From Hydrogenimonas cancrithermarum (GTDB taxonomy: Bacteria > Campylobacterota > Campylobacteria > Campylobacterales > Hydrogenimonadaceae): 64,000 nt of DNA. Shown in pieces: positions 20,164 through 54,837 of the stretch (the first letter of the stretch is position 1; each line of letters starts with the position of its first letter). The stretch lies in the NCBI RefSeq assembly GCF_030296055.1, contig NZ_AP027370.1:1786501-1850500 (forward strand), in the 5' to 3' direction. Below the pieces are notes generated by a model. It was not told the DNA's origin. It was given only the letters and a program-made list of their open reading frames with translations, and made no database searches. Made by a program: the position numbers and the translations under genes.

Positions 20164-20233
20164 TATCCATCCCAACGACTCTTCAACTATCTTTCGCTAA
20201 AATATCCAAAACCATCACTCCAAGGAACAGAAT

Positions 20234-21784
20234 TTGAAAGATGTAAGTATCATCGTACTCGATTTCGGATCGCAGTACACGCAGTTGATTGCACGAAGGC
20301 TCCGTGAAGAGAAGATCTATTGTGAAATCGTTCCCTATTTCACGAAAGTCGAAGAGATCAAGGCGAAAAACCCCAAAGGTATCATTTTCAGCGGCGGGCC
20401 GGCGTCGGTCTACGACAAGGAGGCTTACGCGGTCGAAAAAGGCATCTATGAACTGGGGCTTCCGATCCTCGGTATCTGCTACGGTATGCAGCGTATCGCC
20501 GTCGATTTCGGTGGCAAGGTGGTCCGCTCCAATCATCACGAGTATGGGAAAGCGGAACTCCATTTCTATGAAGAGGGTGGTTACCGTTCTTCGCTTTTCG
20601 AAGGGTGTCACGACGGTACGGTTGTCTGGATGAGCCACTCCGACCGTGTCGAAGAGCTGCCCGCGGGTTTCAAACCGATCGCTTACAGCGACAACTCTCC
20701 CTATGCGGCAATCGCCGATGAAGAGCGAAAAGTGTATGCATTGCAATTCCATCCGGAAGTCCACCACTCTGAAGAGGGGCATATCATGCTTCGCAACTTT
20801 GCGCGCAATATTTGCGGCGTGACCGAAAAGTGGGATATGGGCCATTTCCTCAAAGAGCAGATCAAAAAGATCCGCGAGCGGGTGGGTGAGGGAAAAGTGC
20901 TCTGCGCTCTCAGCGGCGGTGTCGACTCTTCGGTTGTCGCGGCGCTTCTGTACGAAGCGATCGGCGATCAGCTCATTCCTGTCTTCGTCGACAACGGACT
21001 GCTTCGTAAAGGCGAGCGGGAGCAGGTCGAGAGTGTCTTCAAGGTCCACCTCAAAGTACCGCTCATCACCGTCGATGCGAGCGAGCACTTTCTGGTCAAA
21101 CTCGCCGGTGTGACAGACCCGGAGAAAAAACGGAAGATCATCGGCCACACTTTCATCGAGGTGTTCGAGCAGGAGGCGAAGAGACATGAGGGCATCAAGT
21201 TCCTGGCACAGGGGACCCTCTACCCGGATGTCATCGAATCGGTTTCGGTTAAGGGGCCGAGCGAGACGATCAAATCGCATCACAACGTCGGCGGCCTGCC
21301 GGAGTGGATGGATTTCGAGTTGATCGAACCGCTGCGCGAACTCTTCAAAGACGAAGTGCGCAAGCTGGGGTTGGAACTTGGACTTCCCGAATCGCTTGTC
21401 TACCGCCATCCGTTCCCGGGGCCCGGCCTCGCGATCCGCATCATGGGGGAGGTGAACATCTACGATCTCGACATGCTGCGGGAGGCTGACGCCATTTTGC
21501 TCGAGGAGCTCAAAGCGAGCGGCTACTACACGAAGACGTGGCAGGCGTTCGCCGTGCTTCTCAATGTCAAGAGCGTCGGCGTCATGGGTGACAACCGAAC
21601 CTACGACAACACCGTCTGCGTCCGTGTCGTCGAATCGGTCGACGGAATGACGGCGACATTCGCCCATCTGCCGCACGACCTCCTCGAGCGCATCAGCCGC
21701 CGCATCATCAACGAAGTCGACGGTATCAACCGTGTCGTCTACGACATCAGTTCGAAACCGCCCGCGACGATCGAGTGGGAGTAA
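20234..21784 (+). CDS. guaA: GMP synthase (glutamine-hydrolysing)
   Basis: GuaA converts XMP to GMP using glutamine and ATP. The 516-residue protein contains the class-I glutamine amidotransferase domain with nucleophile Cys82 in GICYGMQ and the His/Glu of [13 protein letters not shown] near residue 172. The ATP-pyrophosphatase domain has [11 protein letters not shown] near residue 225. The C-terminal dimerisation domain has [12 protein letters not shown] and ends PPATIEWE as in the family. The start is a TTG, chosen because it gives the canonical N-terminus just before [16 protein letters not shown] and has AAGGAA upstream. Two heptad repeat arrays lie directly after the stop. Confidence 0.96.
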
Positions 21785-21798
21785 CGCGCGGTGCGCGA

Positions 21799-21833
21799 AT
21801 GGAGAATGGAGAATTAAGAATGGAGAATGAGGA
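21799..21833 (+). repeat. 7-bp tandem array, unit ATGGAGA (5 units)
   Basis: Five consecutive 7-base units lie 14 bases after the guaA stop: three exact ATGGAGA copies and two variants (ATTAAGA, ATGAGGA). The unit contains both a GGAG Shine-Dalgarno-like core and an ATG. The fourth copy (ATG at 21820) has a GGAG 11 bases upstream supplied by the second copy. The array is in frame with hemD. Confidence 0.85.
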
Positions 21834-22554
21834 AAGGCCGCAGAGCGACCGACCATTCGAGAAAGCGTGTAACACTTCAACACTCAACACTCAACACTCA
21901 ACACTCAACTCTGTTTATCTGCTTTCCCCGACCCCGAAACCCGGGGTTCGGCATCTACCTATGATCCAGTTTGAAACCATTCCACAGCCACTCGATTTTT
22001 CGGGATTCGACGGCCTGATTCTCACCTCCAAGCAGGGTGTCGTAGCACTCGACGAGGTGAGTGGAGGCAGATGGCGTTCGACGCCTGCGGCGGCCATCGG
22101 CGAGATGACGGCGAAAGAGATCGAAGCGCGGGGCGGGAAGGTGATTTACATCGCTTCCAAAGCCTACGGGGATGTTTTGGCAAAAGAGCTTTCGGAATGG
22201 TTCGAGGGGTTCAGATGGCTCTATCCCCGTCCGAAAGTGGTCGTTTCCAAAATAGCCGCCGACCTTCGCCATGCAGGTATCGAAGTCGATGAAAAGGTGA
22301 TCTACGAGACGAGATGCATGGCGTACGATCGGCCGCGAAGGCCGGAGAAAGATGCCGTGCTCATCTTCACATCTCCTTCGATCGTCCGCTGTTTCTTCGA
22401 GAATTTCGAGTGGGATGAAAGCTGGCGTGCCGTCGCGATCGGAAATAAAACGGCGCAGGCGTTTCCCGCCTGTGTCGTGGCTGAAATCGCTCCTTCAACT
22501 TCTATCGATTCCGCCATCGAATTCAGTTGTGCATTAAGTAACAATAGAGTATAA
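21820..22554 (+). CDS. hemD: Uroporphyrinogen-III synthase (start uncertain)
   Basis: HemD closes the tetrapyrrole ring with inversion of ring D in haem synthesis. The recognisable core begins VYLLSPTPKPGVRHLP and continues FDGLILTSKQGVVAL, AIGEMTAKEI, VIYIASKAYGDVLA and a C-terminal VLIFTSPSIVRCFF / AIGNKTAQAFP half. That is the two-lobed HemD layout. Homologues of the phylum start with Met just before VYLLS, but here that position is AAC TCT GTT, with no start codon. The frame is open upstream through both 7-bp arrays. The ATG at 21820 is my choice because the array supplies a GGAG site; ATG 21799 (longer) and ATG 21961 (cutting off the first conserved strand) are alternatives. The stop codon overlaps the -10 box of the following RNA gene. 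Confidence 0.8.
   Translation: MENEERPQSDRPFEKACNTSTLNTQHSTLNSVYLLSPTPKPGVRHLPMIQFETIPQPLDFSGFDGLILTSKQGVVALDEVSGGRWRSTPAAAIGEMTAKEIEARGGKVIYIASKAYGDVLAKELSEWFEGFRWLYPRPKVVVSKIAADLRHAGIEVDEKVIYETRCMAYDRPRRPEKDAVLIFTSPSIVRCFFENFEWDESWRAVAIGNKTAQAFPACVVAEIAPSTSIDSAIEFSCALSNNRV
21871..21913 (+). repeat. 7-bp tandem array, unit AACACTC (4 exact units plus flanking variants)
   Basis: Four exact AACACTC copies span 21879-21906. An 8-base AACACTTC precedes them and a partial AACTCTG follows. The array ends exactly where conserved HemD coding sequence begins, and encodes STLNTQHSTLN in the hemD frame. On the other strand the unit is GAGTGTT, close to the GAATGTT units inside cysQ. Confidence 0.88.
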
Positions 22555-22560: not shown

Positions 22561-22753
22561 TGACTGAGCGGTGCGCTACCCGCATATCGGGGGTCCAACA
22601 CTTTGATATGGCGGGATTGTGTAGGTGCGCCGTGTGTCGGTGACTTCGTCCGAGCCGGTGCTCCCGGCGAGAAGTTGCCGCCTAAAGCGCGCCTCCCTCC
22701 TGCACCGTTGGTCTATGATGGACCACACTCAAGCGTGAACGCCCGCTCGGTCA
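22561..22753 (+). ncRNA. ssrS: 6S RNA (candidate)
   Basis: The 432-base gap between hemD and purD starts with a region of about 193 nt that can fold into a long rod. The 5' end TGACTGAGCGGTGCG pairs with the 3' end CGCCCGCTCGGTCA as a closing stem of about 14 bp. The interior has the internal loops and a CGGCGAGAAG segment reminiscent of 6S RNAs. A perfect -10 box sits directly upstream. 6S RNA binds sigma-70 RNA polymerase holoenzyme and represses it in stationary phase. Placement before purD fits what I recall of 6S in Helicobacter and Campylobacter. I see no SRP, RNase P or tmRNA signatures. A covariance-model search would decide. Confidence 0.72.
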
Positions 22754-53308: not shown

Positions 53309-54235
53309 TTATATAACGATGAACCAAGGGTTTAAAAGCTCCTTCTTGTTGTAAACAAGAGGAGCTTTAGATGCTAAATTTTCAATGTTGAATGTCGGAT
53401 CGTATCGATACGTCATTTTCCCTGCTTCGCGGACGATGGCATCCGCAGCCGCCGTATCCCACTCCATCGTCGGAGCGAGACGCGGATAGATATCAGCACT
53501 GCCTTCGGCGACCATCAGCAGTTTCAAAGAGGAACCCTTTGAAATGAATGTTGAATGTTGGATGTTGGATGTTAAATTATCAATAAACTCCTGAGTTTCC
53601 TGATTGAGATGGGATTTTGACGCGACGATTTTTAATGTTGAATTTTTAATGTTTAATGTTGAATTTTCAATAGGTAGTTTTTGTGCATTTTTTAAATTTT
53701 TTTCATTCATCATTAAGCATTCATCATTCATCATTATCTTATACGCTCCTTCCCCTTTTTTGGCATAATAAAGTTCTCGGAGTGCCGGAGCATAGACGAC
53801 GCCGAGCACCGGTGTATCTTTGTGAATCAGGGCGATGTTGATGGTGAATTCGCCGTTTTTTTTGATGAACTCCTTGGTCCCATCAATGGGATCGATGCAC
53901 CAATAGTGCTCCCACTCTTTGCGCTCTTCGTAGGGGATGTCGCGTCCTTCTTCCGAAAGGATCGGCAGAGCCGATATTTGTGTTCCGTGTTCCGTGCTCC
54001 GTGTTCCGATTTTTGATAGGCCTTCGGAAATAATCTCGTGTGCTTTTTTGTCGGCTTCGGTCAGGGGGGATTTGTCCTCTTTGTATCCGACCTCGAAATC
54101 TTTTTCGTAAATTTCCATCACGGCTTCGCCGGCTTCGAGTGCGATGGTTATGACCTCCTCGATGGCGATGGCATCGAGAAGTCTCTCTGGTGTCTGGTGT
54201 TCCGTGTTCCGATTTTGATGCACTATATTCCTCAT
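53309..54235 (-). CDS. cysQ: 3'(2'),5'-bisphosphate nucleotidase CysQ enlarged by six heptad-repeat insertions
   Basis: CysQ hydrolyses PAP, the by-product of sulfotransferases. Catalytic motifs are intact: [20 protein letters not shown], the metal site [13 protein letters not shown] (residues about 112-124), [12 protein letters not shown] and the C-terminal [14 protein letters not shown]. The ATG at 54235 overlaps the cysC stop (ATGA). The protein is 308 residues, against about 246 in E. coli. The excess of about 62 is accounted for by six segments encoded by 7-bp tandem arrays, at residues 8-17, 76-85, 166-178, 190-201, 221-230 and 280-289. All fall between conserved blocks, as if in surface loops. 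The enzyme is probably functional. Confidence 0.92.
53370..53397 (-). repeat. 7-bp array in cysQ (unit AATGTTG family)
   Basis: Four 7-base units on the plus strand, GATGCTA, AATTTTC, AATGTTG and AATGTCG, span 53370-53397 and encode residues 280-289 of CysQ. The copies are more diverged than in the other arrays, so this is the least certain one. It interrupts the usual short link between the GKxTxY strand and [12 protein letters not shown]. Confidence 0.6.
53546..53573 (-). repeat. 7-bp array in cysQ (units GAATGTT and GGATGTT)
   Basis: On the plus strand there are two GAATGTT and two GGATGTT units in tandem. They encode CysQ residues 221-230 ([10 protein letters not shown]), just before the conserved SKGSSLK strand. 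Confidence 0.85.
53634..53668 (-). repeat. 7-bp array in cysQ (unit AATGTTG)
   Basis: Five units of 7 bases on the plus strand: AATGTTG, AATTTTT, AATGTTT, AATGTTG and AATTTTC. They encode CysQ residues 190-201 ([12 protein letters not shown]), before the conserved IVASKSH strand. Confidence 0.85.
53704..53738 (-). repeat. 7-bp array in cysQ (unit CATTCAT)
   Basis: Five units of 7 bases on the plus strand: three exact CATTCAT plus CATTAAG and CATTATC. They encode CysQ residues 166-178 ([12 protein letters not shown]) between GEGAY and the next conserved strand. Confidence 0.88.
53981..54008 (-). repeat. 7-bp array in cysQ (unit GTGTTCC)
   Basis: Four units of 7 bases on the plus strand: GTGTTCC three times and GTGCTCC once. 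They encode CysQ residues 76-85 ([10 protein letters not shown]), directly before the conserved LPILSEEG. Confidence 0.88.
54187..54214 (-). repeat. 7-bp array in cysQ 5' end (units CTGGTGT and TCCGTGT)
   Basis: Four units of 7 bases on the plus strand: CTGGTGT twice, TCCGTGT and TCCGATT. They encode CysQ residues 8-17 ([10 protein letters not shown]), between the start codon and the first conserved helix. Confidence 0.8.
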
Positions 54236-54837
54236 CCGTGATTTAGATAGTCGTTTGTCTGCAGGTAGTCGATGATCCGTTCGACACAAATTTCTAGTGG
54301 AATTTTATCGTTTTTTATATAAATTTCGGGTTTGACCGGAGGTTCATAGGGCGATGAGATACCGGTAAAATGTGGAATCTCTCCGGCTCGGGCTTTTTTA
54401 TAGAGTCCTTTGGGGTCGCGCTGTTCACACACTTTAAGCGGTGTATCGATAAAGATTTCGATAAACTCTCCTTCTTCGACGAGATTTCTGACACTGTCGC
54501 GGTCACTTTGAAATGGAGAGATGAATGCCGTCAGCACGATAAGCCCGCTGTCGACGAAGAGTTTGGCAACTTCTCCGATACGGCGGATGTTTTCCACGCG
54601 GTCGGTGTCGCTGAAGCCGAGATCTTTGTTGAGTCCGTGGCGGATGTTGTCGCCATCGAGCAGATAGGTGTGTTTGCCCATCTCATGGAGTTTCGCTTCC
54701 ACGGCGTTTGCGATGGTGCTTTTGCCGCTGCCGCTTAGACCGGTGAACCAGAGGATGCAGGGCTTTTGGTATTTCAGTTTTGCCCGCTCTTCTTTGGTGA
54801 TGCGATGATCGTGCCAGACCACATGCTTATTTGACAT
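54232..54837 (-). CDS. cysC: Adenylylsulfate (APS) kinase
   Basis: CysC phosphorylates APS to PAPS. The 201-residue protein has Walker [18 protein letters not shown] (residues about 29-45), the APS-binding [44 protein letters not shown] and the family end motifs [19 protein letters not shown] and [12 protein letters not shown] start it at ATG 54837 ([11 protein letters not shown]), giving normal length; the frame stays open upstream but overlaps the neighbour heavily there. It overlaps the membrane-anchored APS kinase gene by 11 bases and cysQ by four. All catalytic motifs are canonical. Confidence 0.95.

Follow-up and report, generated by a model that had tools for sequence, protein, structure and literature searches.

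Heptad repeat arrays inserted in frame between guaA and hemD of Hydrogenimonas cancrithermarum probably extend HemD and supply its translation start

Introduction

Where does translation of hemD begin when short tandem repeats lie directly in front of the gene? This question is raised by the guaA-hemD junction of Hydrogenimonas cancrithermarum, a deep-sea-vent bacterium. The window analysed in this study is a stretch of 64,000 nt of NZ_AP027370.1, and the genome to which it belongs is designated G000. Coordinates are those of the window and refer to the plus strand unless stated otherwise.

Structure of the guaA-hemD junction

The open reading frame of guaA, which encodes GMP synthase, occupies 20234-21784 (Pfam GATase and GMP_synt_C; stop codon TAA at 21782-21784). 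The core of hemD, which encodes uroporphyrinogen-III synthase, extends from VYLLSPTP at 21913 to 22554 (Pfam HEM4, 1.1e-30). It is a single intact copy and the sole hemD match in this genome. The gap between the end of guaA and the VYLLS codon (21913-21915) is 128 nt.

TRF detected both of the heptad arrays that a first-pass annotation had reported in this gap. Array 1 (21797-21833; called by TRF at 21797-21829 and also found by the lag-7 scan) is purine-rich and reads ATGGAGA, ATGGAGA, ATTAAGA, ATGGAGA and ATGAGGA. Array 2 (21871-21912; called by TRF at 21871-21909) is composed of AACACTC heptads, arranged as AACACTT-C-(AACACTC)4-AACTCT, and encodes NTSTLNTQHSTLNS. A pure AACACTC unit on this strand is stop-free in all phases. 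Contrary to what had been stated, the gap is not filled by arrays alone: it also contains a short lead after guaA, ahead of array 1, and a 37-nt non-repeat spacer (21834-21870) between the two arrays. Translation showed that the hemD reading frame is open through array 1, the spacer and array 2 and is continuous with hemD. The comparison of congeners placed the beginning of conserved HemD at VYLLS, right after array 2. Both points agree with the annotation. On the minus strand, a 566-codon open frame over guaA (20183-21883) crosses array 1 and is probably a by-product of base composition.

The ancestral start codon

The junction was readable in 14 congeners, G000 counted among them. Arrays were absent from it in seven and present in seven, with differing units. 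The gap in the array-free congeners is 8 nt (G001, G002, G004, G005), 11 nt (G010, G015) or 14 nt (G009). Six of these seven (G001, G002, G004, G005, G009 and G015) have an ATG overlapping the last codons of guaA (GA-ATG-GGAGTAG) that can start hemD. From this ATG, G002 reads MGVERPVYLLSP, and the overlap is with the final Trp codon of guaA. G010 has GTG at the ancestral start position, plus an ATG nearby.

At the same position, the window reads GA-GTG-GGAGTAA. The codon is GTG in the window and ATG in those six congeners because guaA has GAG, not GAA, before TGG. GTG 21775 (21775-21777) overlaps the end of guaA, has no SD-like pairing and lies in the hemD frame (MGV...). The earlier statement that hemD lacks a start codon at the position used by relatives was wrong, and removal of the original hemD start by the insertion is not supported, since this in-frame GTG is the surviving ancestral codon. 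The comparison with array-free congeners does bear out that the arrays are an insertion. The gap of 128 nt equals 8 + 120 nt, in frame. GTG 21775 is intact and in frame with VYLLS, and therefore the arrays form a 120-nt (40-codon) in-frame insertion that replaced no lost start.

Arrays at the junction in other congeners

Period-7 sequence was also found in the gap in G003, G006, G007, G008, G016 and G013, where the gap is 145, 50, 69, 100, 100 and 80 nt, respectively. In G003, G007, G008 and G016, a purine-rich stretch precedes pyrimidine-rich heptads (CCCCCAT, ACCCAGC, TTCCCGA and CCCGACA), which abut [VI]YLLSP. G006 has only the first, purine-rich part, and G013 has a TGAATGG-type array.

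The frame of the ancestral start is kept in G000 and G006 and is shifted or blocked by a stop in G003, G007, G008, G013 and G016. In these five congeners, hemD must therefore start in or near the array. As far as their sequences tell, the proposal that the repeat now provides the start holds in these five array-bearing relatives of G000. In the sister G003, the ancestral ATG frame terminates inside the array, yet both in-array ATGs are retained (MDNGKLRMENEEKPQ versus MENGELRMENEERPQ). In G008, a stop-ATG lies shortly after AAAGGTGA within the array, with an SD pairing of -8.5 kcal/mol.

Support in the congener tree is 14-60% at several key nodes, so array gains are not countable. The tree places G013 among array-free species with 61% support, which suggests more than one array gain, or some losses.

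Choice of the start codon and the N-terminus of HemD

From the end of guaA to VYLLS, the only in-frame ATG, GTG or TTG codons are GTG 21775, ATG 21799 (21799-21801) and ATG 21820 (21820-21822). Both ATGs lie in array 1 and have homologous ATGs in G003. SD pairing, computed against the conserved 16S tail as generally known and not this genome's own, was -0.4, -5.4 and -6.4 kcal/mol, respectively. ATG 21799 has no well-spaced SD. A standard SD at the standard distance is present for ATG 21820 alone: GGAGA (21808-21812) lies 8 nt ahead of it, and both the GGAG (21808-21811) and the ATG are array sequence. Thus, the idea that tandem copies of ATGGAGA yield a ribosome site plus a start codon fits ATG 21820, and it does not extend to the array-1 ATGs at 21806 and 21827, which are outside the hemD frame. 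We believe that initiation in the window is likely to occur inside array 1, with ATG 21820 as the best-supported candidate, so that the repeat would supply the hemD start here as well; GTG 21775 is still in frame, and the claim is weaker for the window than for the five congeners. In the array-1 segment, 5 of the 8 differences between G000 and G003 fall at third codon positions (p about 0.09, not significant).

The number of residues before the V of VYLLS is 46 from GTG 21775, 38 from ATG 21799 and 31 from ATG 21820, and all three include the array-2 peptide. The predicted N-termini are MGVTR, MENGEL and MENE, respectively, and peptides such as ACNTSTLNTQHSTLNSVYLLSPTPK would be expected from the tail. 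In the AlphaFold2 model of the 21799 form, pLDDT was below 50 for residues 1-34, and the ordered fold began at about VYLL. The HemD core had pLDDT mostly above 85, with VYLL as the first strand. The extra residues are thus predicted to be disordered. The N-terminus of HemD must be repeat-encoded because all in-frame starts before VYLLS precede array 2 and the internal ATG 21961 (21961-21963; +48) would cut the first beta strand. HemD almost certainly carries a floppy, repeat-spelled tail of at least 31 residues, which agrees with the estimate of about 30 made at the outset.

The start inside array 1 has to be weighed against two other positions. GTG 21775 may still start hemD, reached by ribosomes ending guaA, with the arrays as a passive in-frame linker and the 46-residue extension as the product. 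We regard this as doubtful, while giving it some weight: the codon is in frame at the start position of the array-free congeners, which likewise have no SD there, and MurI (MKKKFSILHSPFSIRKR...) and GspG (MKEKRSQHSTLNTQHSRKR...) resemble heptads set directly behind a kept start. However, its SD pairing is the weakest among the three candidates, and the ancestral frame is kept in two of the seven array-bearing congeners, which is close to the one-in-three expected by chance; the surviving frame in the window is therefore no proof that GTG 21775 is used. It is scarcely credible that HemD truly starts at ATG 21961 and that everything upstream is untranslated. SD-like sequence does precede this internal ATG in several congeners, but a start there would delete 16 residues, among them YLLSPT, which is invariant in all 13 aligned congeners. 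As the fold begins at VYLL, the first strand would also be removed, and the array-free congeners have an upstream ATG closely ahead of the conserved stretch.

Heptad arrays elsewhere in the genome and genus

A lag scan was run on 384 kb of this genome, comprising the window and stretches picked without regard to repeats. Lag 7 yielded 9 arrays; of the remaining lags between 4 and 20, none exceeded 2 apart from lag 14, which is a multiple of 7. TRF, the lag-7 excess and a pattern search indicate that tandem 7-nt units exceed chance and are dispersed at many genome sites; for the genome as a whole, this view is based on pattern searches and on the stretches sampled. The units include ATGGAGA, AACACTC, AATGTTG and others.

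Of 33 heptad arrays in the sampled parts, which were partly repeat-selected, at least 19 are in frame with a recognisable protein, either within it or at its start; the count was made by reading the ORF list without a gene caller. There are two in hemD, four in a CysQ-like phosphatase, and two each in ZnuA, a mannose-1-phosphate guanylyltransferase (ManC-like) and a GDP-fucose synthase (WcaG-like). GDP-mannose dehydratase (GMD), Mfd, DnaX, MurI, YmdB, GspG and GspH have one each. Pfam domains span the arrays in several of these proteins. The cysQ-like gene is on the minus strand of the window (53309-54289), with arrays at 53545-53573, 53628-53671, 53703-53735 and 53980-54008. Its array-encoded residues form low-confidence loops in the CysQ model and are missing or different in several congeners. 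The arrays of ZnuA (L074 8118-9074, minus strand) include the hydrophobic N-terminus and a His-rich loop. The other positions are L077 3598-6675 (plus) for Mfd, L077 12034-13848 (minus) for DnaX, L078 4711-6354, 12822-14132 and 15564-16718 (all minus) for the ManC-like protein, the WcaG-like protein and GMD, and L079 9669-10271 and 10293-10820 (both minus) for the two type II pseudopilins GspG and GspH.

Heptad units differ between congeners: TGGTCGA is among those of G002 and TTGGTCA among those of G007, and both genomes have a density of 5 arrays per 100 kb. The lag scan found zero heptad arrays in 100 kb of G016. Among 299 genomes of the order, 7 contain AGTGTTG triplets, and four of these 7 belong to this genus.

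Proposed course of events

Taken together, we hold it quite probable that a pair of in-frame heptad arrays behind the ancestral start gives HemD an extension of 31-46 residues, that initiation is most likely in array 1, and that this belongs to a genus-wide process. Two heptad arrays would have been inserted, or have grown, in frame between the ancestral start and the first conserved HemD residue, adding 40 codons. The GGAG of one array-1 heptad would act as the Shine-Dalgarno sequence for ATG 21820, with ATG 21799 and the coupled GTG 21775 as alternatives, and we infer that HemD is produced with the extra N-terminal residues, including the array-2 peptide. At a terminus, such a disordered tail would be tolerated. 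In general, arrays may be seeded and then grow by slippage or recombination, and selection would retain inside genes only frame-preserving arrays at termini or in loops. An array such as array 1, with GGAG and ATG in one unit, could take over initiation.

In silico removal or addition of units in array 1 (-2 to +3) always left an in-frame ATG. A further idea is that the purine-rich array is a frame-independent start module, in which the GGAG and ATG of each 7-nt unit serve the three frames in turn. We think this unlikely. With a ribosome site and a start in each frame, the downstream gene could survive repeat gains and losses. If true, such a module would open the starts of essential genes throughout the genus to invasion by arrays whose heptads keep changing.

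Two regulatory roles were also weighed. The arrays may form a phase-variation switch, in which loss or gain of array-2 heptads turns hemD on or off. Seven is not a multiple of three, and in silico, with one unit fewer or two more in array 2, no in-frame start is left, while +1 or -2 leaves only ATG 21827 with a badly spaced SD. We nevertheless find a switch very unlikely, as hemD is a single-copy gene that is probably needed for heme and siroheme, whereas contingency genes usually encode surface functions. Moreover, the hemD leader is identical in two near-identical G003 MAG contigs, whose differences are confined to another array region near a contig end. Because changes of -1 or +2 units abolish the in-frame starts, array 2 should instead be length-constrained. 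We give even less credence to an RNA element, either a hairpin or a protein-binding leader, that regulates hemD and has only incidental coding potential. Near start codons of Beggiatoaceae, repeats of the TAACTGA type have been suggested as targets of a regulator of translation (PMC4679880). In contrast, the folding energies of the leaders were not consistently unusual, with z-scores of 1.2 for the window, 0.1 for G003, 1.0 for G007, 0.9 for G016, 0.3 for G013, -1.7 for G006 and -3.4 for G008; heptad sequences vary between species, and heptads also occur inside many unrelated ORFs. A hairpin between the two arrays was rejected, showing no consistent stability excess over shuffles. The Rfam search of the hemD leader gave no match, and the nearest Rfam match was the downstream purD RNA motif (RF01069, 78.1 bits; 22621-22752), between hemD and purD.

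Comparison with known repeats

Rickettsia palindromic elements are small palindromic repeats of defined sequence, with units longer than heptads, that are inserted in frame into protein genes. By this general description, they share with our arrays the in-frame insertion into conserved genes (hemD, and the Pfam domains spanning arrays), whereas the heptads are non-palindromic and the leader folds are not consistently stable. Like phase-variable simple sequence repeats, the arrays lie close to the 5' end of a gene and have a unit that is not a triplet, but the gene here is a housekeeping one.

Direct repeats of the heptamer TAACTGA occur in marine Beggiatoaceae, Cyanobacteria and Bacteroidetes (MacGregor 2015, PMC4679880). 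They are mostly intergenic, frequently coincide with start codons or lie immediately ahead of them, and have hardly any Shine-Dalgarno character; some lie in ORFs near protein ends in the stop-free orientation (PMC4679880). Our arrays are likewise heptanucleotide arrays spread over a genome, with the hemD ones at or before a start, although only some arrays of this genome are so placed. Unlike this single heptamer, the sequences here are many, none of them TAACTGA, often inside conserved enzymes, and one type has GGAG and ATG. GGGNATC heptamers of Xanthomonas and Nostoc are also genome-wide, favouring non-coding regions and G-quadruplex formation, and heptamers have been called over-represented yet little studied (PMC4692102); the present arrays are often in coding DNA. 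Borg tandem repeats create disordered protein regions, and their in-ORF units are always divisible by three (PMC9879509). The similarity lies in fast-changing in-ORF repeats that form disordered tails or loops in conserved proteins, as in the HemD tail and the CysQ loops. The difference is that a 7-nt unit is not divisible by three and yields a 7-residue period over 21 nt, and that the host is a bacterial chromosome and not an archaeal extrachromosomal element.

A literature search of titles and abstracts found no paper on these repeats in Hydrogenimonas. Comparing array-free with array-bearing congeners indicates how a housekeeping enzyme can be extended by a simple repeat that also captures its translation start. 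A genus with in-frame heptads in conserved enzymes is well suited to studies of the spread and tolerance of non-triplet repeats in coding DNA, and gene-start calls and proteome predictions in Hydrogenimonas need caution. The G003 contigs (L083, L084) end in, or have gaps at, heptad arrays such as GACCAAC, and therefore short-read assemblies probably under-count arrays. The matches of one heptad-family pattern cluster at 1.67-1.73 Mb and 1.81-1.84 Mb of the H. cancrithermarum genome.
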